Under the pieces are notes generated by a model. That model had not been told where the DNA came from. It did not search any database and saw only the letters and a list, made by a program, of their open reading frames with translations. Positions 967-61,043 of a stretch of DNA of 64,000 nucleotides are shown piece by piece. The number at the start of each line of letters is the position of its first letter. Position 1 is the stretch's first letter. Made by a program: the position numbers and the translations under genes. Source of the stretch: Acidobacteriota bacterium (GTDB lineage: Bacteria; Acidobacteriota; Terriglobia; UBA7540); NCBI GenBank assembly GCA_021817045.1, contig JAKAWG010000011.1, positions 1 to 64,000 of the forward strand. Reading direction: 5' to 3'.

Positions 967-1090
967 CCGCGAAGCGGTGGGGCGGTTGGACCTTGGCGAA
1001 GGGGGTAAACTCCGCGAAGGGTCGCGGTATTTTGTTTCCAAGCAAATACGTGTATGCTTCACGGAGCTTAACCTGAGCGTCGGAAAAGCA

Positions 1091-1128
1091 GATTCCTCCG
1101 CCTCGCGCGGCTCGGCGTCGGAATGACA
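1091..1128. repeat. Dispersed palindrome, family 1 (copy 2, expanded)
   Basis: GATTCCTCCGCCTCGCGCGG continuing to GGAATGACA. It has the same ends as the other family 1 copies but a longer GC-rich centre. Confidence 0.6.
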
Positions 1129-1304
1129 CAGCGAAGGGCTCAGGGCCATTCGCAGGGGAAAGGCGAACGGGCTCAGCATGACAGATTCAAATGATTCACG
1201 CGTTCTTCTGCCCATGTCCGGTCATGGGCGGAATGCTGGGAATGCTCTCAGAGAGAGGTGCAAAGCAGAAAAAAAGATGGTTAGGGGGGCTTCGAAGTAA
1301 GTTA

Positions 1305-1480
1305 TTGAAAACAAAGTCAAATTTTAACAGGCGATGACCAACAATCTCCCCAAGGTCATGTATCCGATTGATTCTAAATGATTAATCGGAACAGATTGTT
1401 GGTAAAAGTAGAAGGTCAAGAAAACAAAACGGTTAGGGCAAAAAATCGGCGAAAAGAGCGAAATTGTTTGTTCAAAACGC
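1305..1480 (+). repeat. Conserved non-coding element, copy A
   Basis: Shares ordered blocks with 40334-40508. TTGAAAACAAAG (1305) and AACAAT (1340) are exactly 35 nt apart in both copies. Then come TCATGTAT and TCTAAA, then after a gap of 62 nt (59 in copy B) the block AAAAATCGGCGAAAA and a GAAATTGTTTGTTC-like tail. It is A/T-rich against its surroundings and ends just before the ribosome-binding site of the GH38-like gene, so it could be a leader RNA, a promoter region or a mobile-element end. No coding frame is conserved. Confidence 0.5.
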
Positions 1481-1502
1481 GATTGTTTAATGGAGGGGAT
1501 TC

Positions 1503-4079
1503 ATGAGCGATCATCTGGATCGAAGAGGGTTTATCAAGCTGGCGGGCATCGGCGCGGCGAGCATGGCGCTCACTGAATCGGAGGTGCTTGGGGCAAAGAC
1601 GCTTAATGGCTCCCAGGCTGCTCCTGCTGGACAATCCGAAGAATCATGGCCTCCGGGAGCAAGCCAAAAGCGTCTCGACATGATTGCTTACGCGCACATC
1701 GATGCCGTCTGGCTTTGGCCCTGGACGGAAGCGATGTCGGTGGTCCTAAGCACGTTCCGTTCGGCCTTGGACCGCATGAAGAGCAATCCAGATTTCGTCT
1801 TTACGGAAAGCTCAGCGCAGTTCTACAAATGGGTTGCGGACAGTGACCCGGAAATGATCCAGGAAATAAAGCAGAGGGTCGAGGAGGGCCGCTGGAATCT
1901 GGTGGGCGGCTGGTGGGTGGAACCCGACGTCAATATGCCCAACGGCGAATCGCTTGCCCGGCACGGCCTGCTGGGGCAGCGCGTCTTTCGGAATCTTTTT
2001 GGCCGTCAAGCCAAGGTGGGCTTTAATCCTGATTCTTTCGGTCATACGGGCACGCTTCCACAGATTTTGAAATTGCAGGAGTTGGAAGACTACGTGTTCA
2101 TGCGGCCGATGGAACACGCGATGCACCTCCCGTCAGACGTGTTCTGGTGGGAAGCGCCCGACGGCACGCGAGCGCTTACGTATCGGATCCCAATCAGCTA
2201 TAACGACTCGGGCGCGTTAGGCGTGCGCGTGCGGGAAGTGACGGCCTTGCGCGAGCCCGTCAAGGAGATGATGGTTTTCTACGGCGCCGGCGACCACGGC
2301 GGAGGAGCGACGGACGAGAACATCCGGTCGATCGGAAAAATCATGGCGACGCCCGGCGCTCCAAAACTGGTTTATAGCACGCCGGAGAAATACTTTGCTG
2401 CCATTCGCGCGATGAAGGATGTAGAACTGCCCGTGATCCGCGGAAGCTTGGAGCATCATGCCGTCGGATGCTACACCGCCGTCGCGCAAGTGAAGAAAGA
2501 TAACCGCACGACGGAGATGGCGGTAACCACGGCGGAGAAGTTAGCCAGCCTCGGTTCGGTAGTGTGGAATGCGCGTTATCCCAGCTCGGAATTACAAGCC
2601 GCCTGGGAGAAGGTTCTGTTTCAGCAGTTCCACGATAGCCTGGCAGGAAGCGCCAGGCCGGAGCACTACGTGACCTCTCGCCACGCCTATGGGTACGCAC
2701 AGGAAGTAGCCAACCAGACGATTTTCTTGTCACTTGAGAAGCTAGCTTGGCAGATTCCGACAGAAGATCCGCAATCGGATTACCTGGTTGTTTTCAACCC
2801 GCACGCCTGGAACACAGAACTGGGTGTGGAATACGATCTGAATTGGCGTCCCGAGGTCCCGTCAGAGCTAACCGACGAGCAGGGAAACCGCGTCGCTCAC
2901 CAATGGGGGCAGGGATCGACCATTACCGGCGACCGTCACGCGCTGGTCTTCCAGGCGCCGCTTCCGGCCTTTGGTTATCGGCAATTTCGAATTCGGAAAG
3001 CGAGCACCGAGGGAGCTGTTCCCTCCGCAGTGAAGGCCAGCGAAGAAATCCTCGAAAACGATCATCTGCGCGTGACTTTCTCAAAAGAGGGTACAATCGG
3101 CGTCTTTGACAAAGATGCTGGGCAGGAGTTATTCGAGGGGCCAACCGCGGGTGCTCGCGCCGTCGTGCTGAATGATCCCAGCGATACCTGGAGTCATCAC
3201 GTCTATTCGTATACGGATGACATCGGAGCTTTTACGCGTACAGACCTTCGGGTGCTGGAAGGCGGACCTCTTCGGGGATGCGTGCAGGTGCGCTCGCACT
3301 ACGGTGGCTCCACGCTTGAGACCAATTGGCTGCTGTATGCAGGCAGCCGGACGCTCGAAGCGCGCTGTACCCTGGATTGGCACGAGCACATGAAGATGTT
3401 GAAGCTCTCATTTCCGGTTCGGGTGCAGGAGCCCCGGTCCACTTATGAGCTTGCTTTCGGGCACATCGAGCTGAAGACGGACGGGGCGGAAAATCCCGGC
3501 CAGCGCTGGATTGACCTTACTGGAAAGCGGGCAGGCCGGGACTACGGCTTGGCCGTGATCAACAATGCCAAGTACGGGTACAGCGTCCTCAACAATGACA
3601 TGCGAGTTTCCATTGCGCGTGGCGCAGTTTACGCGCACGATTTGGGAACCAAGCTCAAGCCGGACGGGACGTACATCTGGCAGGACCAGGGCATCCAGAC
3701 TTTTCGAATGTGGCTGGTGCCGCACGCCGGGTCCTGGCAGGCGGCGGGGATTCCCCGGCTGACGGAGGAATACACGGCGCCCGTTCCGGTGCTCTACCAA
3801 GGCATCCACCCGGGATCGAAGCCGCAATCCGGCTCATTCCTCTCGGTGGACGTCAAGAACGTAGTGGTGACGGCGCTCAAGAAGGCGGAAGAAGGAGATG
3901 ATCTGATCCTCCGCTGCTACGAGACCGATGGCCGCCCGACAACGGCCACGCTGCGCTTGGGATTTGTAAACCGGGAGTGGACCGGAAAGTTTCGTCCCCT
4001 TGAAATCAAAACGCTGAGCATACCGGTGAGCGGCGAAGCAATTCGTGAGGTCAACCTGCTTGAAAAAAGCGTTAGCTGA
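1503..4079 (+). CDS. GH38-family alpha-mannosidase-like enzyme, exported
   Basis: Predicted 858-residue retaining glycosidase that would release alpha-mannose from glycans outside the cytoplasm. A Tat-type leader is visible (DRRGFIKLAGIGAASMA, residues 6-22). The GH38 metal-binding HxD motif is AYAHIDAVWLWPW with H65 and D67. VGGWWVEPDVNMPNG follows, then the nucleophile motif GFNPDSFGHTG with Asp177 as candidate nucleophile, and later FQQFHDSLAGSA, typical of the domain bridging to the beta-sandwich C-terminal half. The ATG is preceded by GGAGGGG at ideal spacing. It is followed convergently by the rhamnosidase gene. Family assignment is firm; the linkage specificity is not visible. Confidence 0.88.
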   Translation: MSDHLDRRGFIKLAGIGAASMALTESEVLGAKTLNGSQAAPAGQSEESWPPGASQKRLDMIAYAHIDAVWLWPWTEAMSVVLSTFRSALDRMKSNPDFVFTESSAQFYKWVADSDPEMIQEIKQRVEEGRWNLVGGWWVEPDVNMPNGESLARHGLLGQRVFRNLFGRQAKVGFNPDSFGHTGTLPQILKLQELEDYVFMRPMEHAMHLPSDVFWWEAPDGTRALTYRIPISYNDSGALGVRVREVTALREPVKEMMVFYGAGDHGGGATDENIRSIGKIMATPGAPKLVYSTPEKYFAAIRAMKDVELPVIRGSLEHHAVGCYTAVAQVKKDNRTTEMAVTTAEKLASLGSVVWNARYPSSELQAAWEKVLFQQFHDSLAGSARPEHYVTSRHAYGYAQEVANQTIFLSLEKLAWQIPTEDPQSDYLVVFNPHAWNTELGVEYDLNWRPEVPSELTDEQGNRVAHQWGQGSTITGDRHALVFQAPLPAFGYRQFRIRKASTEGAVPSAVKASEEILENDHLRVTFSKEGTIGVFDKDAGQELFEGPTAGARAVVLNDPSDTWSHHVYSYTDDIGAFTRTDLRVLEGGPLRGCVQVRSHYGGSTLETNWLLYAGSRTLEARCTLDWHEHMKMLKLSFPVRVQEPRSTYELAFGHIELKTDGAENPGQRWIDLTGKRAGRDYGLAVINNAKYGYSVLNNDMRVSIARGAVYAHDLGTKLKPDGTYIWQDQGIQTFRMWLVPHAGSWQAAGIPRLTEEYTAPVPVLYQGIHPGSKPQSGSFLSVDVKNVVVTALKKAEEGDDLILRCYETDGRPTTATLRLGFVNREWTGKFRPLEIKTLSIPVSGEAIREVNLLEKSVS

Positions 4080-43039: not shown

Positions 43040-46273
<3,234 letters not shown>

Positions 46274-48196: not shown

Positions 48197-49684
48197 ATGG
48201 CTTTAAACGCCAAATGGGTGCCAATGAAGTGGCCGTGCGGGCCGTTGCCGATTGCACTTCTACACAAGTCCAAGAGCGGTGCGCCCGGCCTGGGGCAGAC
48301 GCTTGAAGCCTGGCTGCAACCATCGACCTTGGAATTTCTTAAAGGAAGCCCGGTCAACAGCCTGGTTATCGATTGGGCCGCCGGTGGCCCGGAGGATTCA
48401 CGTCAGCAGCGTGCCGTTGGCCCGCTTTTGCAAGCGGGCCGCAAGCTGGGCATCAGTTTTGTCGGTCGGATCACGGTGATGGAAAACGTAGCGCGAGCCA
48501 CAGCAGCGGCGCGTGCCGCTGGTCTTTCAGCCGTCATTTTGGAGCAGCCTCAAGTTCAAGCCCTGGATTTGCCGGTCATTTTGCAATTTCCCAGGGATCA
48601 GGTCGAGTGGCGCGCAACTTCTGCGATCTTCAGTTCGACGGGTAACGTTTGGCCGGGAGTAAAGCTTAAGACCATGGAGGGAGACACGGCCATTGCCGGA
48701 CCGACAGGCGTGCCTTGGGTGAACTCGAACGGCTGGTTCTCACTTTTGGCTCGTGAAATGGCTCCGGGGAAAGTGCTTTGGCTGGACGTTGATCCCCCGG
48801 CCTCTGTCGGCGCCTCGCATCCGGAGGAGTACTGCCTGGCGGTTGCCGACGCTCGCGTTTATGCCAGCCGCTGGATCATTTCCTTGGATGATGAGATGCG
48901 TGCAGCGGTGTTGAAAAGAGAGACCCGGGCGATGGACGCCTGGACCCACATGTGCGAAACGATTTCCTTTTTTGAGAGCCACTCGGACTGGAGCGCGTAC
49001 AAGCCGATGGGTGTTCTCGCCGTCATTTCGGATTTTCGTGGAGAGAATGCGTTCATGGGCGGGGAAGTGCTGAATCTTCTCAATCGCCGCCAGGTTCAGT
49101 TTTTGATCATGGACCGCCCGCGAGCGCTTTCAAAGCCCATCAAAGGGCTGAAAGCTATTCTCTGGGTAGACGCGGCATCGCCCAACGCCCCGCAGCATGC
49201 ACACCTGCTCGCTTTCGTCCGGCAGGGCGGCTTATTGATTGCGGCGACCTACTGGGGCCCGTCGAGGGTGAAGCCTTACAAATACGACTGGTTATTCGGT
49301 TATGATGTATACGGCGTGGATAAAGGGAGAATTGTGGTGCCTGAAAAAGGGTTTCAGGACCCGTATGAGGTAGCGAGGGCTACCCATCTTCTGGTGGGTC
49401 GCCGGAATGATCTCGTCCGCCTTTACAATCCTGCAACCACGAACTGTTATCCAAGTATTGATTCCGAGCGCCACAAACAATTGGTGCAAGTTCTAAACTA
49501 TTCAACGAAGCCTGCTGACTATGTGACCGTCTGGGTGAACGCTGGCGCATCGTCCGCGAGGCTTTGGAGCCCAGTGCGGCAAGATTCTTCTGTTGTCAAG
49601 TATGTCGCGGCCAGCGACGGCACGGACCTCGATCTTCCCACGTTCGCGGTTAACTGCGCGGTCGAGTTTGAGAGGTTGCCATGA
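48197..49684 (+). CDS. Hypothetical protein, first gene of the DUF362-ApbE-hydrolase cluster
   Basis: A 495-residue protein I do not recognise. There is no clear signal peptide and only a weak ribosome-binding site. The first half alternates strands and helices like a barrel (LVIDWAAGGPEDSRQQRAV, ISFVGRITVMENVARATAAA, AVILEQPQV). The second half reads like a class I amidotransferase-like fold, as in beta-galactosidase trimerisation domains: GVLAVISDFRGENAFMGGEV, KAILWVDAASPNAPQ, LLAFVRQGGLLIAATYWG. An inactive or divergent glycosidase is one possibility. Its stop overlaps the DUF362 start (ATGA), so they are coupled. The tail VKYVAASDGTDLDLPTFAVN looks like a small beta domain. Confidence 0.6.
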   Translation: MALNAKWVPMKWPCGPLPIALLHKSKSGAPGLGQTLEAWLQPSTLEFLKGSPVNSLVIDWAAGGPEDSRQQRAVGPLLQAGRKLGISFVGRITVMENVARATAAARAAGLSAVILEQPQVQALDLPVILQFPRDQVEWRATSAIFSSTGNVWPGVKLKTMEGDTAIAGPTGVPWVNSNGWFSLLAREMAPGKVLWLDVDPPASVGASHPEEYCLAVADARVYASRWIISLDDEMRAAVLKRETRAMDAWTHMCETISFFESHSDWSAYKPMGVLAVISDFRGENAFMGGEVLNLLNRRQVQFLIMDRPRALSKPIKGLKAILWVDAASPNAPQHAHLLAFVRQGGLLIAATYWGPSRVKPYKYDWLFGYDVYGVDKGRIVVPEKGFQDPYEVARATHLLVGRRNDLVRLYNPATTNCYPSIDSERHKQLVQVLNYSTKPADYVTVWVNAGASSARLWSPVRQDSSVVKYVAASDGTDLDLPTFAVNCAVEFERLP

Positions 49685-50883
49685 CGAGGAAAACGGGTTG
49701 TTCCCGCAGGGAATTTCTTGGTGCAATCGCTGCGACGGCTGGCGCGTACATGGCTCGTCCGGTGGAGGCTTTCTCCAGGCCCGCGCCGGCCAGTCCTGTG
49801 ACCATCGGCTTATGTCGCGAATACACCCCGCACGTGGTGGACGTGCTTTCGACCATGTTCGATCAACTCGGTGGACTGGAAGGACTGGTTCGCGGAAGAA
49901 CTGTGGCCATCAAACTCAATCTTACCGGTGACGCCACCGACCGCTTTCACTACATGCCGCCCGAAATGACCCATTGGGTTCACCCGCAGGTCATCTGGGC
50001 CACCGTTCATCTTTTGGGACGGGCGGGAGCGCGACGCATCCGGCTGCTGGAAAGCCCGATGTCTACGGTCGAGCCACTCCCGGAATTTATGGTCCACGCG
50101 GGTTGGGAGCCGCGAGAATTCCTGAGCGCCGCGCCGTGCGTGGAATTTGAGAACACCAACTATTTGGGCAGCTTCAAGACGTACGCTACCTTTTGGGTTC
50201 CCAACGGCGGTTGGTTGTACAAAGGCTACGATCTTAATCAGTCCTATAAAGACTGCGACGTCTTCGTTTCGCTCGCCAAGCTAAAGGAACATACGACCGC
50301 TGGTATCACCCTCTCGATGAAGAACTGCTTCGGCATCACCCCTTGCACGATTTATGGTGATGACGTTCCCGAGGACGAGCCCGGCCTTTTCCCAAACGGG
50401 GGGCGCGGACCATTCCACGGTGGGAATCGATTGCCTCCGAAGAGCGCTCCTCCGCCGGTTGATCCGCATGGGTGGTCACACGTTCCGGGCTATCGCGTTC
50501 CGCGGGTAACTGCGGACTTGGTGGCAGCGCGGCCCGTACATCTGGCGGTCATCGACGGCATTCACACCATAACGGGAGGCGAGTTGCCGGGGTACAAGGG
50601 AGTTCGCACGGTTCATCCGGGAGTCTTGGTGGCTGGCCGTAACTGCGTGTGTACGGACGCGGTTGCCACGGCAGTCATGGGATTCAACCCCATGTCCATG
50701 CATGGCACGCCGCCGTTCCAGGCTTGTGACAATATGATGGCATTGGCGGAGCAACTGGGCGTTGGAACGCCCGACCTGGAGAGGATTGAGGTGTTAGGGA
50801 CGCCCATTTCGAAGGCTCGTTTTCCGTTTCCTCCCGTGTTTCAAAGCTTCGGGGGACTGTACACTCGCCGGTCACCCTCCTAA
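49681..50883 (+). CDS. DUF362 domain protein, Tat-exported
   Basis: A 400-residue protein with a Tat leader (SRREFLGAIAATAGAYMA, residues 8-25). The DUF362 core is visible: GRTVAIKLNLTGDATDRF, VIWATVHLLGRAGARRIRLL, CDVFVSLAKLKEHTTAGITL, SMKNCFGITPC, and near the end LAVIDGIHTITGGELPGYKG with CVCTDAVATAVMGFNP. DUF362 proteins are uncharacterised and some are fused to ferredoxin domains; no Fe-S motif is present here. The leader and the ApbE neighbour suggest a redox role outside the cytoplasm, which is inference. It overlaps the preceding stop by 4 nt. Confidence 0.85.
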   Translation: MTRKTGCSRREFLGAIAATAGAYMARPVEAFSRPAPASPVTIGLCREYTPHVVDVLSTMFDQLGGLEGLVRGRTVAIKLNLTGDATDRFHYMPPEMTHWVHPQVIWATVHLLGRAGARRIRLLESPMSTVEPLPEFMVHAGWEPREFLSAAPCVEFENTNYLGSFKTYATFWVPNGGWLYKGYDLNQSYKDCDVFVSLAKLKEHTTAGITLSMKNCFGITPCTIYGDDVPEDEPGLFPNGGRGPFHGGNRLPPKSAPPPVDPHGWSHVPGYRVPRVTADLVAARPVHLAVIDGIHTITGGELPGYKGVRTVHPGVLVAGRNCVCTDAVATAVMGFNPMSMHGTPPFQACDNMMALAEQLGVGTPDLERIEVLGTPISKARFPFPPVFQSFGGLYTRRSPS

Positions 50884-51020
50884 CTCTGGCAAGCTATGCG
50901 CACGGACAAAAGTTACGAGCGCAGCAAACCACACCTTACTCCCCACCTTACCAAGAGCCTGCCCTGAAGCGGCAGCGAAGGGAGGGGACCGGAGGCGGTA
51001 CGGTTAGGAAGCCTGCATTG

Positions 51021-52073
51021 ATGTCCGCGCGTAGAAGAAACAACACGGCTCCGGGCCGCACCACAAAACGGTCTCATCAACGTTTCCTCCGAACCCTCCG
51101 CTCCTCACTGGTCCGATACGAAAATGCCCATGAAGCCATGGGGACCGTTTTTACCGTGGTCGCTTATGGACTGAAGTGCGCCTCTCTGGATGAGACAGTG
51201 GACCAGGCTTTCCGGGAAGTCGATCGCATGGATGGCCAGTTGAGCCATTACAAGCCGGCGAGCGAACTTTCCATCGTTAACCGCGAGGCTTACGGGCGAA
51301 CTGTCATTGTGGGGCCGGAATTGTTTAGGCTTCTCGAAGATTCTCTTCGCTATAGCGAAGAAACATTCGGCGCTTTTGACGTAACGGCTGGCCACTTAAT
51401 GAAATCGTGGGGGTTCTTTCTTGGGCTTGGCCGTGTGCCGTCGCGAGCCAAATTAGCCGAAGCTCGGGAGCGAGTTGGCTATCAGCACGTCAAGCTGGAT
51501 GCGCCGGCTCGATCCGTTCGTTTTGACAGACGCGGAATCGAGCTTGATTTGGGCGCAATCGGCAAAGGCTACGCGGTTGATCGCGTGATCGAAATCCTGC
51601 GCGAGGCCGGGATCGAGCGAGCGTGCGTTTCGAGCGGTTCGAGCACCATTTATGCGCTCGGGTCGCCGCCGGGCGAGAGAGGATGGAAGGTCGCGGTGCG
51701 CAATCCTCTTGGCGGTGCGCAACCGGCATCCATTTTGCGACTCCAAAACCTCGCACTGTCCGTTTCCGCATGTTGCGAGAAATTCTTCGAGTCGAGCGGC
51801 AAGACCTACGGCCACATAATGGACCCGCGCGCGGGTACGCCAGCCGGAAATCTCCTCATGAGCATGGCCATCTCGCCTTCAGCGACCGATAGCGATGCCT
51901 TGTCAACAGCCTTCTTCGTGGGAGGTGTGAATCGGAGCCGGGAATACCTTCAGCACCATCCTAACCGCGGTGCGATTTTCTATTTGCGAACACGCTTCGG
52001 CCGCGCCTTCCGGCGGCTTGTCCTGAACTCAAAATTTTCTGCCGGTAGCTTTCTAAACATTGAGGAGGAATAG
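51021..52073 (+). CDS. apbE: FAD:protein FMN transferase (ApbE family)
   Basis: A 350-residue enzyme that attaches FMN covalently to a threonine of target proteins, using FAD. Family motifs: MGTVFTVVAYG, VDRMDGQLSHYKPASELSIV (FAD-binding start), FGAFDVTAGHLMKSWGFF, IELDLGAIGKGYAVDRVIEI and GHIMDPRAGTPAGN, plus SATDSDALSTAFFVGG (metal-binding Asp region). The ATG at 51021 is one codon inside a TTG start. There is no clear signal peptide or lipobox, although the basic N-terminus (RRRNNTAP...KRSHQRFLR) is unusual. The cluster has no obvious FMN-binding-domain target. Confidence 0.9.
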   Translation: MSARRRNNTAPGRTTKRSHQRFLRTLRSSLVRYENAHEAMGTVFTVVAYGLKCASLDETVDQAFREVDRMDGQLSHYKPASELSIVNREAYGRTVIVGPELFRLLEDSLRYSEETFGAFDVTAGHLMKSWGFFLGLGRVPSRAKLAEARERVGYQHVKLDAPARSVRFDRRGIELDLGAIGKGYAVDRVIEILREAGIERACVSSGSSTIYALGSPPGERGWKVAVRNPLGGAQPASILRLQNLALSVSACCEKFFESSGKTYGHIMDPRAGTPAGNLLMSMAISPSATDSDALSTAFFVGGVNRSREYLQHHPNRGAIFYLRTRFGRAFRRLVLNSKFSAGSFLNIEEE

Positions 52074-52120
52074 CCCTCCGATTATCACAAGAGCAATTGT
52101 CGGCGGGTTCGGAGGTAATC

Positions 52121-54838
52121 GTGAAAAGGCGTTCATTTCTTAAGGCGGTAGCGGGTTTTGTTCCTGGCGTGGCGCTAGCGAGCAACCTGGCTGATGCCTC
52201 CGCTCAAGTTGCTGGACCAGAAAAAGCTGAAGATGAGAACCTTTGTGGCTTGGCGCGCGAGCTTGCCCAAGAGAAACGGACGGTAGTGGGCGTGTTGCGC
52301 GATCCCGTATTTGCCGGCCATGAAGTCCCATCGAGTTTGCGGCCAGAGCACTTCCAGCAGACGTGGGGAACGAAGGAGAACATTCGGGTCGTATTTCTGG
52401 ACAAGGACCAAATCCGCTCCTATTCCATTCTCTTCAAGAGCAGGATGGACATTCTGGTTTACCCCTATGGCGAGATGTACCCAATGGACATGTTCCCAGT
52501 ATGCTCGGGAAGCGGGCTCGCGCACTTCCTCAAACGTGGAGGCGCGGTGCTCACTACGGGAGGGGTTCCGTTTGCTCAGCCGGTCAGTGACGAAGGCAAA
52601 CCTCCCCTCGACGATTCGCCCCCACCCGGCGACTTGAATCTTGACAACGTTCTTTACGTGCGTTGGGTCGCGCCGCTCGGCTACAAGTATTATGTTCATC
52701 CCTATCAACCTACGGTGACGCGCGTTAACCAGGACTATCTTCCTGAAGTGCCGTCTGACATTGACGTTGCGGGCTGCCAGCTTGGAATTGTGGCCAACAA
52801 CAGCTCCCATGCTCCTGTTCCGAAGCCTTCCCATGGCAACACATTTCCGGAGCGGTATCCGGCCCGGCAGGTCACTCCGCTTTTGTGGGGAGCCGATAAA
52901 TACGGCCAAATCCTGACCACGAATGCCTTGCTGATTCAGGATTTTGAGGATGGTAGCCGCCGCATCCACATAGCCCATCAGGCGGAGCCGCACCCTCTCT
53001 CGCCAGGCTCTCCCGCTTTTTCGGCTTTGATGGATGCGCTGCTCAACTTGCTGACAAACCGCGTGATCGTTCAAAGCGTAGAAACGAACTACGCGTGTTT
53101 CCGGCAGCACGAGCCGGTCGTCGTGAGGGCCGGACTGGTGAGCTTTGAGCCGGAAGACACCGAAGCGGAGCTTGTGCTGGAAATTCGCGCGAACGGCGAA
53201 ACTGTGGACTTACACACCGAGTCTCTGCCGCTTCCCGCGAAGCAGAGTGTGGTCAAAGAATGGCATTGGACGCCTGAAAGCTTTGAATCTGATGAATATG
53301 AAGTGTTGGTGAAAGTGCGGCGGGGCGGCCAGACCGTCTCCTCGGGTGAGAACGGATTCGTGGTTTGGAAAGACGCCGTGATTCGAAAAGGGCCGAGCGT
53401 CGGCATACAAGGACAGTACTTCCGTATTGGAGACTCGGAATCCTTTTTCTTTGGTACGAACTATTACGAGTCAACGCACGGCTGCATCATGTGGTACCGG
53501 CCGAATATGAAACGCATTGCCGCCGATCTGCGGCAGATGCGCGGCTGCGGGGTGAATTACATCCGTCCGCACTACCATCACCTCAAGTGGTTCAAGGATT
53601 ACCTGCTCTTCGAGCATGGCAAGCTGTTCCCGTTTTTCGCCTCGCTCGAGGACGTAGACAGTCCGATGCCCGATGAACGGATCTGGCGGAACTGGGACGC
53701 CATCATCTATCTTTGTCAGAAATTCGGGATCGTCTACGGCGGCGATTTATTTACGCTTGTGCCGGAAGAGATGGGCGATCCGCGCGGCTGGTCTCCGTTT
53801 ATAGAGAGTGTCGATTGTCCTGAAAAGCGCGCGGTTGAGCAGGAATTCCTGCGGCGCATCAATTTACGCTACATGGCCGTCCCTGGCATTTCGTGGGATT
53901 TGTGGAATGAGCCGACCGTGCCGCTGAAAGCCTTGCAGCGTTGGACCCAGGCAATGCGACAGACTTTTGAGAGTACAGGAGTACACCGCTACGTCACCGT
54001 GGGCGGCGCGACCGGCGAGAAATTAGGAGACGCCGTGGACTATCTGGCGCTGCATGGCTTGGTTTCCAAAGTTCGTGACACAGTAAACCAGTCGACCACG
54101 CCGGTGATGATGCAGGAAGTGTGGATGCGTCATCGCGAGAACCTGCCGGATGAGTTGGCCCAGGGGGAAGACATGCGAGAGTGTATTCTGGCGTCCGTCA
54201 AGAATGGCTTCTGCGGATTCGCGCCGTGGTCCTGGACGCGCCAGATGTGCCTCTGGCAGGATTCCTACGTACACTACCCCGCCATTCGCATGGAGAGCCG
54301 GGACGACCGGCTGGGCGCTCAAACCCACGACGACGCGACCATTAAGCCGGCGGGCCAGGTCTTTCTTAATCTTGCCGTGCTGTTGCGCACCGTCCGTTTT
54401 GTCAGCTTCGATCATTCGACCGGGCGGGTCGCCACCGACCGCGGAGAAATTCGCGTGACATTGAGGAATGGTGAGCAGTCATCAGCCTATTCGCTCTACC
54501 ACGTTTCTGGAGACCGCTGCTGCGCGGCAATGGCACAGACATCGGCCTCTTGGGATGGGAAGCCGCTCATCTCAGGCCCCGCGGGTGGGTACGTCTACGT
54601 CTTCTGCGAAGACGGTTCCGATCTTTTGGGGGCTAAGCGGATTTACGCAAAGTCTGAGTCGCCGGGAAAGCTGGTGTTTGAAGGCCGCGCCACCGACCCA
54701 CGCTCGGTTACGCTCTTGGATATGTCGCCGTTCGGGAACAAGTCGCTCGAAACGCTCTCATGGAATCGCGGGCCAAATGGCATGGAGGTGATGATTTTGC
54801 CTACGTGCCAAGCCTATTGGGTTCGGGCGGAGTGGTGA
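52121..54838 (+). CDS. Exported clan GH-A-like glycoside hydrolase, multi-domain
   Basis: A 905-residue protein with a Tat leader (KRRSFLKAVAGFVPGVALAS). GTG at 52121 was chosen over TTG at 52097 because GGAGG lies 5 nt upstream. Domains: an amidotransferase-like region (MDILVYPYGEMYPM, LAHFLKRGGAVLTTGG, about 95-170), a beta-sandwich near 330-430, then a TIM barrel starting FFFGTNYYESTHG. The barrel shows the GH-A acid/base motif SWDLWNEPTV (Glu near 597), a candidate nucleophile in VMMQEVWMRH (Glu near 666) and FAPWSWTRQM. The C-terminus is another beta domain. It resembles GH5/GH2/GH42 relatives, but no family fits clearly. Last gene of the cluster. Confidence 0.75.
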   Translation: MKRRSFLKAVAGFVPGVALASNLADASAQVAGPEKAEDENLCGLARELAQEKRTVVGVLRDPVFAGHEVPSSLRPEHFQQTWGTKENIRVVFLDKDQIRSYSILFKSRMDILVYPYGEMYPMDMFPVCSGSGLAHFLKRGGAVLTTGGVPFAQPVSDEGKPPLDDSPPPGDLNLDNVLYVRWVAPLGYKYYVHPYQPTVTRVNQDYLPEVPSDIDVAGCQLGIVANNSSHAPVPKPSHGNTFPERYPARQVTPLLWGADKYGQILTTNALLIQDFEDGSRRIHIAHQAEPHPLSPGSPAFSALMDALLNLLTNRVIVQSVETNYACFRQHEPVVVRAGLVSFEPEDTEAELVLEIRANGETVDLHTESLPLPAKQSVVKEWHWTPESFESDEYEVLVKVRRGGQTVSSGENGFVVWKDAVIRKGPSVGIQGQYFRIGDSESFFFGTNYYESTHGCIMWYRPNMKRIAADLRQMRGCGVNYIRPHYHHLKWFKDYLLFEHGKLFPFFASLEDVDSPMPDERIWRNWDAIIYLCQKFGIVYGGDLFTLVPEEMGDPRGWSPFIESVDCPEKRAVEQEFLRRINLRYMAVPGISWDLWNEPTVPLKALQRWTQAMRQTFESTGVHRYVTVGGATGEKLGDAVDYLALHGLVSKVRDTVNQSTTPVMMQEVWMRHRENLPDELAQGEDMRECILASVKNGFCGFAPWSWTRQMCLWQDSYVHYPAIRMESRDDRLGAQTHDDATIKPAGQVFLNLAVLLRTVRFVSFDHSTGRVATDRGEIRVTLRNGEQSSAYSLYHVSGDRCCAAMAQTSASWDGKPLISGPAGGYVYVFCEDGSDLLGAKRIYAKSESPGKLVFEGRATDPRSVTLLDMSPFGNKSLETLSWNRGPNGMEVMILPTCQAYWVRAEW

Positions 54839-54845
54839 GGAATTG

Positions 54846-56354
54846 TTATCCAAGGACGTCAACGATCTGGTGGAGCATGTGCAAGTCCACATGGTCGCGA
54901 ATCAGCGAGGCCAACAGGTTGAGACATTCCTCGGCGGGCGGCGAACCATGATGATTCAGCGGCTCCCAGCCACGCCTTTCTCTCAAGCGGTTGAGCAAGC
55001 AGCGGCGGAACACGGGTGCGTCGAACAATCCGTGCAGGTAAGTTCCCCAGACTGAATCGTCGCTGGACGCCGCGCCCTCAAATTCGTCGACCGCCATCCG
55101 CCGTCGCTCGACGACTTTGAAAACCGGTGCGCAGGAATCTGCTCGCACCGTTCGTCCCATGTGAATTTCATAGGCGCGCACAGGCGTCTGGAATGCCAGG
55201 TGGATAGCTTGCACTTGCGCGGTCGTTTTTTGAGATTCGAAATTGGTTACGACGTGGAGCAAACCGAGCCCTGGCATGGAGGGTGTCACCGATTCGACAC
55301 CGGCAGGGTCTCGCAGCTCCTGCCCCAACATTTGATACCCTCCGCAAATGCCGGCCACCGCCGCGCCAGCAGCGTGGCAATCGAGTATATACTTTGCCAG
55401 CCCCGTCCTCCTGAAATGTTGAAGGTCCGCCATGGTGCTTTTCGAACCGGGTAATATGATGAGGTCCGGCACAGAACTGGCACTCTCCGGCGGGCGCATG
55501 ACGTATCCCAGGCTCACGTCTGGCTCCGTTTCAAAACACTCGAAATCCGTCGAGTTGGAAATGTGAGGAGGAAGCACGACCTGAATGTTGAGCCGGTGAG
55601 ATTCAGGGGTCTGCGGTTCCGGCGGCTTGGGCGCATGCAGCCCGTCCTCTTCAGGCACAGCGAGACCGGGGGCAAACGGGACCACACCGAGCACTTTTTT
55701 CCCGGTCTTGGCTTCCAGGAAGTCGACTCCGCCTTGAAGAAGCGAACGCTCGCCACGAAATTTGTTAATCAGAAATCCTTTCACCAGCGATCTTTCCTCG
55801 GCTGTGAGCAACTCCAGGGTTCCCACCAGCCAAGCGAAAACTCCGCCCGGATTGATGTCACCAACAAGAATCACCGGGGCGCCGATCATTTGCGCCACGG
55901 CCATATTGACGATGTCAAAAGGACGGAGGTTGATTTCGGCCGGGCTTCCGGCTCCCTCGATCACAACCAGATCGAATTGGCTGGAAAGTGTGTTGAACGA
56001 GCTTTGGATGATCTCGCGCAGCCTCGGCTGAAAAGCGTGATATTCGCTCGCAGCCATCACGCCTGCAGGCTTGCCCAACACGACGACCTGTGCTCCCTTC
56101 TCAGCCGCGGGCTTTAACAAAATCGGGTTCATCTCAACGCTCGGCTCGATGCCGCACACTTGGGCCTGAAACGCCTGAGCGCGCCCGATCTCTCCGCCGT
56201 CAGCAGTGACAAAGGAGTTGTTCGACATGTTTTGCGCCTTGAAGGGAGCAACGCGAAAACCTCTTTGCCGAAAGTAGGCGCACAAGGCAGCGGCAATCAC
56301 GCTCTTGCCCACATAAGAGCCCGTACCCTGAACCATCACCTTCTTGGCATTCAC
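54846..56354 (-). CDS. cobQ: Cobyric acid synthase CobQ
   Basis: A 502-residue glutamine-dependent amidase that amidates the four remaining side chains of adenosylcobyrinic acid a,c-diamide. The N-terminal dethiobiotin-synthetase-like ATPase has VQGTGSYVGKSVIAAALC, APFKAQNMSNNSFVT and EGAGSPAEINL. The C-terminal amidotransferase half has nucleophile Cys in GICGGYQMLGQ (near residue 336), YEIHMGRT and GTYLHGLF with the catalytic His. The GTG at 56354 was chosen because homology starts at once; the frame upstream to 56426 is repeat DNA. It is separated from the receptor gene by about 215 bp containing that repeat. Confidence 0.9.
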   Translation of the reverse strand: MNAKKVMVQGTGSYVGKSVIAAALCAYFRQRGFRVAPFKAQNMSNNSFVTADGGEIGRAQAFQAQVCGIEPSVEMNPILLKPAAEKGAQVVVLGKPAGVMAASEYHAFQPRLREIIQSSFNTLSSQFDLVVIEGAGSPAEINLRPFDIVNMAVAQMIGAPVILVGDINPGGVFAWLVGTLELLTAEERSLVKGFLINKFRGERSLLQGGVDFLEAKTGKKVLGVVPFAPGLAVPEEDGLHAPKPPEPQTPESHRLNIQVVLPPHISNSTDFECFETEPDVSLGYVMRPPESASSVPDLIILPGSKSTMADLQHFRRTGLAKYILDCHAAGAAVAGICGGYQMLGQELRDPAGVESVTPSMPGLGLLHVVTNFESQKTTAQVQAIHLAFQTPVRAYEIHMGRTVRADSCAPVFKVVERRRMAVDEFEGAASSDDSVWGTYLHGLFDAPVFRRCLLNRLRERRGWEPLNHHGSPPAEECLNLLASLIRDHVDLHMLHQIVDVLG

Positions 56355-56568
56355 GGTCGACTCTGCACAGCGCGGCGGAACTGCCGCGACCGAAAGTGGA
56401 TTCTCCGCGTTCTCCGTGCCTCCCAAGCTTTAACGCCGAGAGCACGAAGGGTCTCCGTGGCCTCTGTGTTGGGTCTTGCACGAGCACGGAGAGCACTGAG
56501 CAAGCCGCTGCAACTGAAGAGCGACCCACGATCCACCGTGAAAAGAACTGGTGTATTTGTGATGGGTG

Positions 56569-59052
56569 TTACCACCTGAAGCCCTCGCCGCCCAACGTGA
56601 ACTTTACTCCCGCGCGAAAGTTGTAGGGAAGGGCGGGGTATCCGAATGCCGCCATATAGTGCTGGTCCAAGAGATTTCCCATGCTGGTGTAAAGCGTGAC
56701 GCCGTGCCGAAGGTTGTACCATCCACTGAAGTCCACCAGTTGATAGCCCATCAACAGGTTTCGATTGGGCAGCAGCATGGTGTTTCCAAAGTAGCCGTCG
56801 GTGAGAAACGTGCTGTCATCGGACCGGCTGACGAAGAAACCGGTCAAATCAAAACCGTAGCGCCGCTTGGCGTACCCAACCAGCAGGCTGCCGGTTTGGG
56901 GTGGCCGGCGGAAAGGTCTGCCGCCGACCAAGGGCGAGAAGGCCCCGATCGGAATGTTGGGGAATGCGGGATTAATCGCCGGAAAGAGCGCGCTGCTCGC
57001 GAACGACCTCGTGACGAGCGCATCGAGATACGTGTAAGTCGCCTTAAGAATCCAGTTGCTGCCCGGACTGAGGTCGACCTCAGTCTCCGCGCCCTGGCTT
57101 CGGAATGAGTCCGAATTAATGGTGGCGCCGCTCGTCGCCTCGGCGACGACCGCCGCGGGTACGCCAAGTTGGGGCAGGGCGCTTTGAGGAACGTCATCAA
57201 TGAGGTCGAAAAAGCGGTCGTGAAAAAAGGTCAGGCTGAGGCGCGCTCGTTCGCTCCAGAAGCCTTGCTCAATTCCGGCATCCAGCGTGGTGCTCCGCTC
57301 GGCCCCGACCGGCGAAATATGATACTGGTTGATCAGTTGGGTGCCGTCCGGCAATGTCGAAAGCAGGTTGAAGAGTGAAGCCGTCTGATCGAAGATGCTT
57401 GGTTCTTCGATCCCTGTGCCAAAGTTGAATCGCAGCTTCGTGTGGCCTACAAGCCGCGTAGACGACGGCTGCCTCAGATAGTAGGCGGCTGAGACGCGAG
57501 GCGTGGCCGCGAAGCCAAAGACTGCATTGTCGTCCAGGCCCACGCCGGCCGTGGCAAAGGCGCGCTGCCACAAGGCGCTGTGAACCTCGAGAAAGCCGTT
57601 GATGTTGTTCCGTGTGCTGGTCGAGCGGGGCAAGCCGGAAGACTGAGTAAACCCGTACTCGTGATCGTACTCAAAGCCGGCTGTGGCCCCGGCGGCGGGA
57701 GCGAAGAAATATTCGGATTGAGCATAAGCGGACTGGACCCACGTGCGCGAGTCGAAAAGCTGCGGATAGGCGCCTCCGTAATCGAGGATGGCCTGGCCGT
57801 GCGTGCAGAATCCGTTGGCCCCGCAGATCGTCGCCGGCTCGCCCAGGTAGTTAGGGCCAAAACCAAACGGGTTAAACGGCTCGCCGACGGCGGAAGGATC
57901 GTCAAAGTGGTAGTTAATGTTGGTCGAGGTCAGGCGCAACATGTTATCCCAGCGCGGCGTTGTCTGGTTCTGCGCAGTCAGCCCAACGTAGGTATCCTGC
58001 TGACGCTGGAAAGAATTGTTTGGAATGCCGTACAAATACAAGGCATCGGAAACGCCAAGACCGGTAGCGTCGTGGTGAACCGTCAGGCGGACGCTGCTGG
58101 ATGTGCTCGGCTCCCAGCCAAAATTTCCTGAATATGTGGCGTTGTGAAACGAATTATTGGGCAGGCTATTTTGCGTATCGAACCGCATGAAATCCGAGTA
58201 ATAGTCAAACCGCCGAAAAATACCGCTTATCGAGGCGTCTTGCTGCAAGGTGTTGAAATTCCCTCCGTCGGCCGAATAAGTGATTTCCGGTTGGGGTGTA
58301 GTCCCGCGCGGCGTCGTAATGCTGATGACGGAAGCGAGCGCATCGCTCCCGTAAACGACGCTGTTCGGCCCGCGCAGCACTTCAATGCTATCGACGCCGC
58401 TCGCCGCAGCGTTGGCAAAATCAAATTCGCCGCCGATGTCGTTAGCAGGAACTCCGTCGAAGAGGACCTTGTTGAAGTTTTCGTCTCCGCCGCGAACGAA
58501 CACGGATGTAACTGCACCGCGTTGCCCGCTTTGAACTACGTTGACGCCGGGCACCAGGCGAAGCGCATCAGCCACGTCCAGCTTGTCTAAGGCCTCGATC
58601 TCTCGGTGGTCAATCACGCTGACAGAAGCGCCCACCTGGGATTCGGGCAGTTTGGTTCCTGTATCGGACACCACCACTTGCTGCCGAAGCAAGCCGACGG
58701 CAAGCATTACACTAAGAGTTGCTTTCCCCGCGCTCGGCAGAAAGATGGTGGCGCTTTTTTGCGGCTGGAAGCCTTTCGCCTCGACGCGGACGTGATACCT
58801 TCCGGTTCTCTTTGGTTGGAAGACAAAAACGCCTTGCCGATTTGTCCGGGTTTGGCTGACGGCCTTTTGAGAACGAAACAAAGTCACCCTAGCACTCGGA
58901 ACCGCCGCTCCAAGTGGGTCCAGAACGCGGCCGTGAATAGTTCCGGAATTGGCCGCCTGCGCGGGTGAGCATGCTAACAAGCAGAGTGAGAAAAGGAAAG
59001 CGGAGAAGCATAACAGTAGGGCTTCGTGACCGGTGAGCGGATGCTTCAACAT
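56569..59052 (-). CDS. TonB-dependent receptor, probable cobalamin/corrinoid transporter
   Basis: An 827-residue outer-membrane protein. Signal peptide at residues 1-33 (ALLLCFSAFLFSLCLLACSP). Then a carboxypeptidase-regulatory-like domain (GTIHGRVLDPLGAAVPSARV, residues 37-115), the plug (VVSDTGTKLPESQVGASVSV, VPGVNVVQSGQRGAVTSVFV, EVLRGPNSVVYGSDALASVI) and a 22-strand barrel ending in an aromatic residue (GGEGFRW). The plug motifs match BtuB-like receptors. Its ATG directly follows the cobO stop (TAGATG) and the operon is under a cobalamin riboswitch, so corrinoid uptake is the best reading. It is longer than E. coli BtuB. Confidence 0.85.
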   Translation of the reverse strand: MLKHPLTGHEALLLCFSAFLFSLCLLACSPAQAANSGTIHGRVLDPLGAAVPSARVTLFRSQKAVSQTRTNRQGVFVFQPKRTGRYHVRVEAKGFQPQKSATIFLPSAGKATLSVMLAVGLLRQQVVVSDTGTKLPESQVGASVSVIDHREIEALDKLDVADALRLVPGVNVVQSGQRGAVTSVFVRGGDENFNKVLFDGVPANDIGGEFDFANAAASGVDSIEVLRGPNSVVYGSDALASVISITTPRGTTPQPEITYSADGGNFNTLQQDASISGIFRRFDYYSDFMRFDTQNSLPNNSFHNATYSGNFGWEPSTSSSVRLTVHHDATGLGVSDALYLYGIPNNSFQRQQDTYVGLTAQNQTTPRWDNMLRLTSTNINYHFDDPSAVGEPFNPFGFGPNYLGEPATICGANGFCTHGQAILDYGGAYPQLFDSRTWVQSAYAQSEYFFAPAAGATAGFEYDHEYGFTQSSGLPRSTSTRNNINGFLEVHSALWQRAFATAGVGLDDNAVFGFAATPRVSAAYYLRQPSSTRLVGHTKLRFNFGTGIEEPSIFDQTASLFNLLSTLPDGTQLINQYHISPVGAERSTTLDAGIEQGFWSERARLSLTFFHDRFFDLIDDVPQSALPQLGVPAAVVAEATSGATINSDSFRSQGAETEVDLSPGSNWILKATYTYLDALVTRSFASSALFPAINPAFPNIPIGAFSPLVGGRPFRRPPQTGSLLVGYAKRRYGFDLTGFFVSRSDDSTFLTDGYFGNTMLLPNRNLLMGYQLVDFSGWYNLRHGVTLYTSMGNLLDQHYMAAFGYPALPYNFRAGVKFTLGGEGFRW

Positions 59053-59610
59053 CTAGAATTCGATTCCTTTCTGCGCCGAGATTCCCTGCTCAAAAGGGTG
59101 TTTGATTTCGCACATTTCGGTGACCAAGTCTGCTATTTCCACGAGCTCCGGTCTGGCATCCCGACCTGTGAGAATGACGTGCAGCATGGCCGGCTTGTTC
59201 TTCAGAAATTCCACGACGTCTTCAATCGCCAGAAAGCCGTAACTCAGCGCGTAGTTGATTTCATCAAGGATGACGATGTCGTAGTTTCCGGAAAGGATCT
59301 TTTCCTTGCCGGCCTCCCAGGCTTTGCGAACCATGGCCTTATCAACCTCAACATCTTTGCTTTCCCACGTGAAGCCTTGTCCCATCGGAACAATTTCAAA
59401 CGTCTCGAGCTTTGGCGCGCTGCGCAGCTCTCCGGATTTCCATTTCCCTTTGAAGAACTGCAACATGATGACCTTCATGCCGTATCCGCAGGCGCGCAAC
59501 GCTACACCCAGCGCCGCCGTCGTCTTTCCCTTTCCGTTTCCGGTGTTGATGATGATCAGACCTTTCTTCTTGTGGGCTGTCACCCCCGCTCGCGTGACGG
59601 CGGTTTTCAT
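59053..59610 (-). CDS. cobO: Cob(I)yrinic acid a,c-diamide adenosyltransferase (CobO/BtuR)
   Basis: A 185-residue enzyme putting the adenosyl group on the corrinoid cobalt. The P-loop GNGKGKTTAALG begins at residue 24 (unusual phosphate loop typical of this family), followed by KVIMLQFFKGKWKSGE, YDIVILDEINYAL and VILTGRDARPELVEIADLVT. The ATG at 59610 has GAGGAG upstream and overlaps the cobB stop (TTATGA), indicating translational coupling. A longer frame to 59712 lies inside cobB and is rejected. Length is typical of CobA/CobO/BtuR proteins. Confidence 0.93.
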   Translation of the reverse strand: MKTAVTRAGVTAHKKKGLIIINTGNGKGKTTAALGVALRACGYGMKVIMLQFFKGKWKSGELRSAPKLETFEIVPMGQGFTWESKDVEVDKAMVRKAWEAGKEKILSGNYDIVILDEINYALSYGFLAIEDVVEFLKNKPAMLHVILTGRDARPELVEIADLVTEMCEIKHPFEQGISAQKGIEF

Positions 59611-61043
59611 AACGTCTCCTCGCGTATGGCGTCGTCCTTCAGGCTGCTGTGGCCGTGCTGAAGCCTCGCACGGCGACCGCTCGCGGCGCGGCGAATGTTC
59701 TCCACCAAGCAAACTGCCATATTCGGGTTGGACAAGAAGTGCAAATGAATGTAACTCGCCAAAACGTTCTTTATTCGGAACCCTTCTTCCTCTTCACGTC
59801 CACTTGATGGATAGCGCACAAGATAATTCCGTGCGATGTTTCCCACTTCGGTGATTGTCGAGCAATGAAAGCTATGTCCGCGCGCCGCGTCGCCCGCTGG
59901 ACCCCATAAACCTTCCGCATTCAGCCGAACTTCCGCATAACCAAACTTCACCAAGCGATCGGTCATTTGTACGCGGAGTGGCATGAGACCCGCCATGGGA
60001 AAACTTTGTCCTTCGCGGTCCACAATCTCCTCCCCGAGCAGCATCAAGCCTCCACACTCCGCGTAGATAGGGCCGCCATTTTGTCCAAACTGGCGGATCG
60101 CGTCGAGCATGGGCCGCTTGCCACTCAGTTTGCCGGCATACAACTCGGGATAGCCTCCCCCTAGGTAAAGCGCGTCAAGAAGGGGCGGAAGGCTCTTGTC
60201 GTTTAGCGGGCTGAACTCGACAATCTCCGCGCCACACGCCCGCAGCGCCTCAAGGTTCTCTTCGTAGTAAAAGGAGAATGCACGGTCTCGCGCGACTCCG
60301 ACTCGAAGGGCGCACGGGGTTGCCGGCGAGACCTTCTTGGCAGGCTGAATTCGAATGTCCGGAACGCGCACCAGAAGCGCGTGCAGGTCGATCCAGCGCT
60401 CGGCCATACCGGCCAGCATGGAGATAGCCTCTTCGGTCAGGCAGTTCTCTTCGGCGGTCTGCAGCCCCAAGTAACGTTCTGGAATGCGGATCTTCTCATT
60501 TTGCGGGAGGCAGCCGAGCAGCGGTGCGGAACAATCGTTTGCCATAGCTTCCCGCAATATCCGGATGTGTCCCTCTCCACCAACCTTATTAAAGATCACC
60601 CCCACGATCTTCACCTTGGGGTCGAAGACCTCAAATCCACGAACTATTGCCGCCGCGCTCTCGGCCATGGCTGAAGCGTCCACAACCAGGACCACCGGCA
60701 GTCCCAGCAGCTTTGCCAACTCGGCGGTGCTACCAGACTTGCCGCGCACCCCATCAAAAAGGCCCATCACCCCCTCGACGATGCAAGCATCCGCATTTTG
60801 GGCGGCTGAATAAAAAATTTCCCGGTTGGTCTCCGGGCTCAGCATCCACCCGTCAAGATTGCGCGCCGGGCGGCCGCACACACGGGCGTGATGGCCTGGA
60901 TCAATAAAGTCCGGGCCGCATTTGAATGGCTGAACTTTCAGGCCCTTTTTGCGCAAGGCCGCCGCGAGCGCCAGGCTCACTGTTGTCTTGCCTGATCCAC
61001 TTGCCGGGGCGGTAATCACACAGCCCTTCACAGTTCTACCCAT
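59607..61043 (-). CDS. cobB: Cobyrinate a,c-diamide synthase CobB
   Basis: A 478-residue enzyme amidating the a and c side chains of (hydrogeno)cobyrinate with glutamine and ATP. N-terminal ATPase: VITAPASGSGKTTVSLALAA, KCGPDFIDPGHHA and EGVMGLFDGVRGKSGSTAEL. C-terminal amidotransferase half: LYLGGGYPELYAGKLSGKRP, nucleophile Cys in YAECGGLMLLGE (near residue 329) and ASYIHLHFLSNP with the catalytic His. First gene after the cobalamin riboswitch. The start has no obvious ribosome-binding site, which may reflect riboswitch control of translation initiation. Both CobB and CobQ type enzymes are present, so late corrin amidation can run locally. Confidence 0.93.
   Translation of the reverse strand: MGRTVKGCVITAPASGSGKTTVSLALAAALRKKGLKVQPFKCGPDFIDPGHHARVCGRPARNLDGWMLSPETNREIFYSAAQNADACIVEGVMGLFDGVRGKSGSTAELAKLLGLPVVLVVDASAMAESAAAIVRGFEVFDPKVKIVGVIFNKVGGEGHIRILREAMANDCSAPLLGCLPQNEKIRIPERYLGLQTAEENCLTEEAISMLAGMAERWIDLHALLVRVPDIRIQPAKKVSPATPCALRVGVARDRAFSFYYEENLEALRACGAEIVEFSPLNDKSLPPLLDALYLGGGYPELYAGKLSGKRPMLDAIRQFGQNGGPIYAECGGLMLLGEEIVDREGQSFPMAGLMPLRVQMTDRLVKFGYAEVRLNAEGLWGPAGDAARGHSFHCSTITEVGNIARNYLVRYPSSGREEEEGFRIKNVLASYIHLHFLSNPNMAVCLVENIRRAASGRRARLQHGHSSLKDDAIREETL

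Follow-up and report, generated by a model that had tools for sequence, protein, structure and literature searches.

A g1-DUF362 pair, an apparently orphaned ApbE and a duplicated hydrolase: probable juxtaposition of three units in an Acidobacteriota genome

Comparison of four adjacent genes of an Acidobacteriota bacterium with their relatives indicates that this part of the window (the whole analysed stretch of 64,000 nucleotides of contig JAKAWG010000011.1) is probably a juxtaposition of three units rather than a four-gene system, namely a pair consisting of a gene denoted here g1 and a DUF362 gene, an orphaned ApbE gene and a duplicated hydrolase gene (Table 1). The genome to which the window belongs, hereafter G000, is a 94% complete draft in 174 contigs.

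Table 1. The four genes of the cluster, with positions in the window
Gene	Position	Strand	Length	Features
g1	48197..49684	+	495 aa	
DUF362 gene	49681..50883	+		PF04015 8e-24; Tat leader CSRREFLGA
ApbE gene	51018..52073	+		PF02424 6e-72; without signal peptide
Hydrolase gene	52121..54838	+		GTG start; Tat leader KRRSFLKA; predicted clan-A-like

Layout of the gene cluster

An earlier note on this DNA described four plus-strand genes, the first two overlapping by 4 nt (ATGA, between the start of DUF362 and the end of g1) and the last two separated by 47 nt (from the end of ApbE to the GTG of the hydrolase gene), with Tat leaders on the DUF362 protein and the hydrolase, and all of this is confirmed by the sequence; the DUF362 and ApbE genes are 134 nt apart. 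What the note overlooked is that neither g1 nor the window ApbE carries an export signal. In a Pfam search with the four proteins, matches were obtained for DUF362 and ApbE, and none for g1 and the hydrolase. The GC content is near 57% across the whole cluster, with no distinct compositional island, and a promoter and terminator scan of the cluster performed no better than it did on shuffled sequence. The cluster adjoins a group of minus-strand genes (window 54846-61043) that encode cobyric acid synthase, a TonB receptor, and CobO-like and CbiA-like proteins (cobalamin genes, named by eye). Compared with the usual SecA sequence, the SecA encoded at 43040-46273 of the window appears to carry ~150 extra residues, inserted after QLKKSGV and before [13 protein letters not shown].

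The conserved g1-DUF362 pair

A search of 61 relatives recovered six close homologues of g1 (45-57%), in 6 genomes of the family, and in all six loci a DUF362 gene (62-69%) directly follows g1, and none of the six has ApbE or the hydrolase in its vicinity. When 84,980 species genomes were scanned, seven g1 loci emerged, one of which was new and contained the same g1-DUF362 pair. The complete gene order of the window was seen in no relative; only the pair recurs, in close relatives.

Like the window protein, the close homologues of g1 possess no export signal. Searches of Pfam and of PDB sequences with g1 itself gave nothing convincing; however, its distant homologues match Glyco_hydro_66 and a GLMA_2nd/GATase-like domain, and because of these matches g1 is predicted to be a glycosidase-like protein, with a TIM-barrel-like N-terminal half and a GATase-like/beta-galactosidase-trimerisation-like domain. 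Profile comparison of g1 with the hydrolase detected no relation between the two. The AlphaFold models of g1 (pLDDT 40) and DUF362 (pLDDT 46) were of too low a quality to support a comparison of folds. We know of no close DUF362 member with a known function. PDB sequence searches with DUF362 and with the hydrolase returned nothing convincing. The window DUF362 protein belongs to the DUF362 family (PF04015, 85.2 bits against a cut-off of 24), which shares clan CL0471 with the LarA N-terminal domain (PMC11770544), and differs from the family at large in being a predicted Tat-exported protein and in its pairing with g1. Together, g1 and DUF362 constitute a conserved two-gene unit, which would combine a cytoplasmic glycosidase-like protein with a Tat-exported DUF362 protein.

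The hydrolase as a gene-length duplicate

The sole near relative of the hydrolase among the genomes searched is a paralogue in its own genome (77%; G000:C82:997-3714) that starts at the same codon. In a blastn comparison, window positions 52121-54836 align with positions 1000-3715 of the paralogous locus (L014) at 76% identity, and the match is exactly gene-long, beginning with the GTG and ending with the stop codon. The two copies have no flanking sequence in common, and no ApbE, DUF362 or g1 gene lies beside the C82 copy. The window copy would be a paralogue confined to the length of the gene, which ended up behind the other three genes. It is a predicted Tat-exported, clan-A-like glycoside hydrolase: the NEP motif (E597) and E666 are conserved in all five homologues. 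The WNEP acid/base motif and the second conserved Glu, along with a distant homologue (L048) that matches Glyco_hydro_42, liken it to the GH42-like enzymes of clan GH-A, although the window protein itself matches no Pfam family.

The interpretation put forward in the earlier note, in its fullest form that of a single extracytoplasmic system in which a flavinylated DUF362 protein oxidises glycans before their cleavage by the hydrolase, is favoured by the adjacency of the genes, the two Tat leaders and the clan-A-like catalytic residues of the hydrolase. We consider it extremely unlikely: it is largely refuted by the absence of the gene order from all relatives, and it is further contradicted by the lack of export of ApbE and g1, by the solitary position of the hydrolase's paralogue, by the association of the ApbE lineage with another protein (see below), and by the absence of a conserved [S/T]GA[S/T] motif from both DUF362 and the hydrolase. 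Adjacency in a single genome is misleading here, and the apparent flavin-glycan operon does not withstand comparison.

The window ApbE and the usual partner of its lineage

The window ApbE scores 242.8 bits with the Pfam ApbE model (cut-off 25.6) and matches the solved transferase FmnB (7esa) with an E-value of 2e-41. The catalytic triad of ApbE FMN transferases is Ser-His-Asp (PMC12052999), and when the window protein is aligned with FmnB, all three residues are found to be kept (Ser of VSACC, His of GHIMDP and Asp of TDSDALST); beside the catalytic Ser, the window protein carries the replacements G221A (Gly to Ala) and Y223C (Tyr to Cys). Given the intact reading frame and the retained triad, the enzyme may still be active.

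The closest relatives of this ApbE (50-62%) are found in 13 other genomes of the family. In 11 of the 12 loci with readable upstream DNA, ApbE is directly preceded by a gene for a Tat-exported Gfo/Idh/MocA sugar oxidoreductase, which we denote GfoA. By our own estimate, chance adjacency would be ~1% per locus if a genome contains ~30 such oxidoreductases among ~4,500 genes, related genomes not being independent of one another. At the remaining locus, G315:C108, ApbE is a second copy that lacks a leader and is preceded by stop codons; the GfoA of G315 is encoded on another contig. Altogether, this ApbE lineage occurs in 14 genomes of the family, and 13 of them encode GfoA (in G302, as a fragment at a contig edge). 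In the 94% complete draft of G000, GfoA was not found, the best match being partial and at 39%; the gene could sit in a gap of the draft. GfoA is related to the glycoside 3-dehydrogenases (NCBIfam BT_2158_fam; compare the glucuronide-3-dehydrogenase of PDB 8tdi), being a Gfo/Idh/MocA protein that matches this family, but it differs from them in scoring far below the equivalog cut-off (62.6 bits against 750), in its linkage to ApbE and in an inserted AGATV segment. The usual role of the lineage would be to put FMN on the oxidoreductase or to supply it with flavin. To this extent, the idea that flavin chemistry goes together with sugar oxidation is consistent with the lineage of the window ApbE, whereas the partner that it calls for was not found in G000.

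The window copy departs from its relatives in several respects. The best 15-residue hydropathy at the N-terminus is -0.25, whereas 11 relatives all reach 2.04 or more, and a hidden leader can be rejected, there being no hydrophobic stretch in the 40 residues before MGT or in the other frames. In the phylogenetic tree, the window ApbE is the sister of the G312 ApbE, with an end branch of 0.48 against 0.15 (0.15 and 0.18 for its nearest relatives), so that its rate of evolution is roughly three times that of the sister, and 17 of 118 otherwise invariant positions are lost compared with 0-5 in the other members. The long branch may in part reflect the species, because its DUF362 and g1 are also diverged (each has lost 13% of the invariant positions). 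With GfoA not found in the genome, the leader missing and evolution accelerated, the window ApbE looks functionally orphaned, and probably is. It would be a displaced member of a lineage that is elsewhere tied to GfoA, and for the same reasons it most probably represents a relict or else works inside the cell on another target.

A second operon with DUF362, ApbE and a g1 homologue

The families to which three of the four genes belong are nevertheless truly associated in another operon. In G298, G309 and G330, a gene for a Tat-exported DUF362 protein (DUF362b), followed by those for a PQQ-like propeller, an ApbE and a g1 homologue (g1b), form a tight, partly overlapping operon, and the same order is found in G297 and G327, where the contigs hold only part of it; G297 and G298 are of the same genus. 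The g1b protein is a remote homologue of g1 (22-25%), and profile alignment (hhalign, 99.7% over 437 columns) extends over nearly the full length. In the tree, the ApbE of this operon belongs to a lineage other than that of the window ApbE. The co-occurrence suggested in the earlier note thus fails for the four-gene order and is borne out for DUF362, ApbE and a g1 homologue, in these five genomes. These operons are loci L039-L042 and L076; in G309, G327 and G330, genes for an amidohydrolase and a PLP-enzyme-like Tat protein lie nearby.

The closeness of g1, DUF362 and ApbE in the window is perhaps not a matter of chance, since members of the same three families share a tight operon elsewhere. 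One could go further and regard these three genes as one unit in which the window ApbE does the job of the ApbE of the second operon, the hydrolase being incidental. Such a unit would agree with the recurrence of other members of the three families in the five genomes and with the nearly full-length homology of g1 and g1b. We nonetheless regard it as unlikely, given that the window ApbE falls outside the ApbE lineage of that operon, that ApbE is absent from all six other g1-DUF362 loci, that DUF362, g1 and the propeller lack a conserved acceptor motif, and that DUF362 is exported whereas the window ApbE is leaderless. The reading that we prefer is that three units are juxtaposed.

Search for flavin acceptors

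The absence of a standard FMN-binding domain from the cluster, reported earlier, extends to the family: PF04205 was matched in none of 13 family genomes, G000 included (4 of 14 control genomes gave a match), and 11 of these 13 genomes encode ApbE, so the ApbEs of the family must have other targets. Comparison of the four window proteins with their homologues revealed no conserved [S/T]GA[S/T]-like motif in any of them. The proposal that DUF362 is the flavin target accordingly lacks support, and no acceptor Thr of the kind expected in DUF362 or the hydrolase is conserved among their homologues. The AGAS of g1 and the GGAT of the hydrolase were rejected as acceptor sites, being absent from homologues; the propeller of the DUF362b operon has no conserved acceptor motif; and a small secreted protein (G000:C14) in which DQNSGAT follows the signal peptide was discarded, as the motif is absent from 14 relatives.

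A good candidate acceptor in G000 is the HAITGATIK motif of a DoxX fusion protein encoded on C151 next to an ApbE of another lineage; the motif is conserved in all five ApbE-linked DoxX fusions (L015:8451-11263, L074 and L156-L158). The presence of this conserved motif in G000 would accord with the window ApbE serving an exported protein encoded elsewhere, such as this one. That is very unlikely, however: the C151 fusion already adjoins its cognate ApbE, and a scan for [D/H]xx[S/T]GAT gave fewer matches than the reversed control, without a second conserved candidate. Yet another ApbE lineage is located beside an FGE-sulfatase-like protein (L075, L078, L084, L151, L154 and L155), which in L078 is fused to a NapC-type cytochrome domain; a different Gfo/Idh/MocA protein adjoins most of these loci.

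A wider ApbE-Gfo/Idh/MocA module

The lasting interest of the cluster lies in the module formed by the relatives of its ApbE with Gfo/Idh/MocA proteins. Outside the family of the window organism, the analysis covered 396 genomes of the phylum, 25 of which encode homologues of GfoA (38-47%). ApbE is next door in 18 of the 20 such loci that were read at length, in five of them with a DoxX-like protein in between, and these 18 loci come from seven further families, which brings the number of Acidobacteriota families with the module to eight. For twelve further Gfo/Idh/MocA loci in the family of the window organism, the ~1.5-kb flanks contained no ApbE. The module loci are L071, L073, L077, L079, L081, L142, L143, L145-L147, L149, L186-L197 and L199-L204.

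The ApbE-linked Gfo/Idh/MocA proteins have in common an inserted segment with AGATV, TGASY, TSASY or EASES that is absent from most of the unlinked ones. The motif known from the literature is a strict D-x-x-[S/T]-G-A-[S/T] (PMC12052999); since the inserted segment departs from it, the segment is only a candidate flavin site.

ApbE flavinylation clusters have been surveyed previously (Meheust 2021, PMC8238504; Huang 2024, PMC11334425), and the module resembles them in the Ser-His-Asp triad of ApbE and in the location of ApbE beside exported redox proteins. It differs in that FMN_bind is missing from the 13 family genomes and that the partner of the lineage is a Gfo/Idh/MocA protein; the window copy further differs in having neither leader nor partner. 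The main texts of both papers contain no mention of the Gfo/Idh/MocA family (no 'GFO'), and among the papers searched for ApbE joined with DUF362 or with MocA there was no relevant one, the only result, for MocA, being an unrelated study of expression in a seaweed. The ApbE-(DoxX)-Gfo/Idh/MocA module of Acidobacteriota thus apparently has not been described before.

Tentatively, and with less confidence than we place in the juxtaposition itself, the window ApbE may be viewed as a stray copy of a phylum-wide flavin-linked sugar-oxidation module made up of ApbE, a Tat-exported Gfo/Idh/MocA oxidoreductase and, optionally, a membrane protein resembling DoxX. In such a module the oxidoreductase would carry FMN at the insertion ([S/T/A]-x-A-[S/T]-like; AGATV, TGASY, EASES) and would pass the hydride electrons of its bound NAD(H) to the quinone pool; we infer both the flavin site and the electron route. 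If this is so, the module would explain how exported Gfo/Idh/MocA enzymes are re-oxidised, and if the oxidoreductases are flavinylated, they represent a new class of ApbE substrate. The module makes the disposal of electrons by exported NAD(P)-binding sugar dehydrogenases a testable question.
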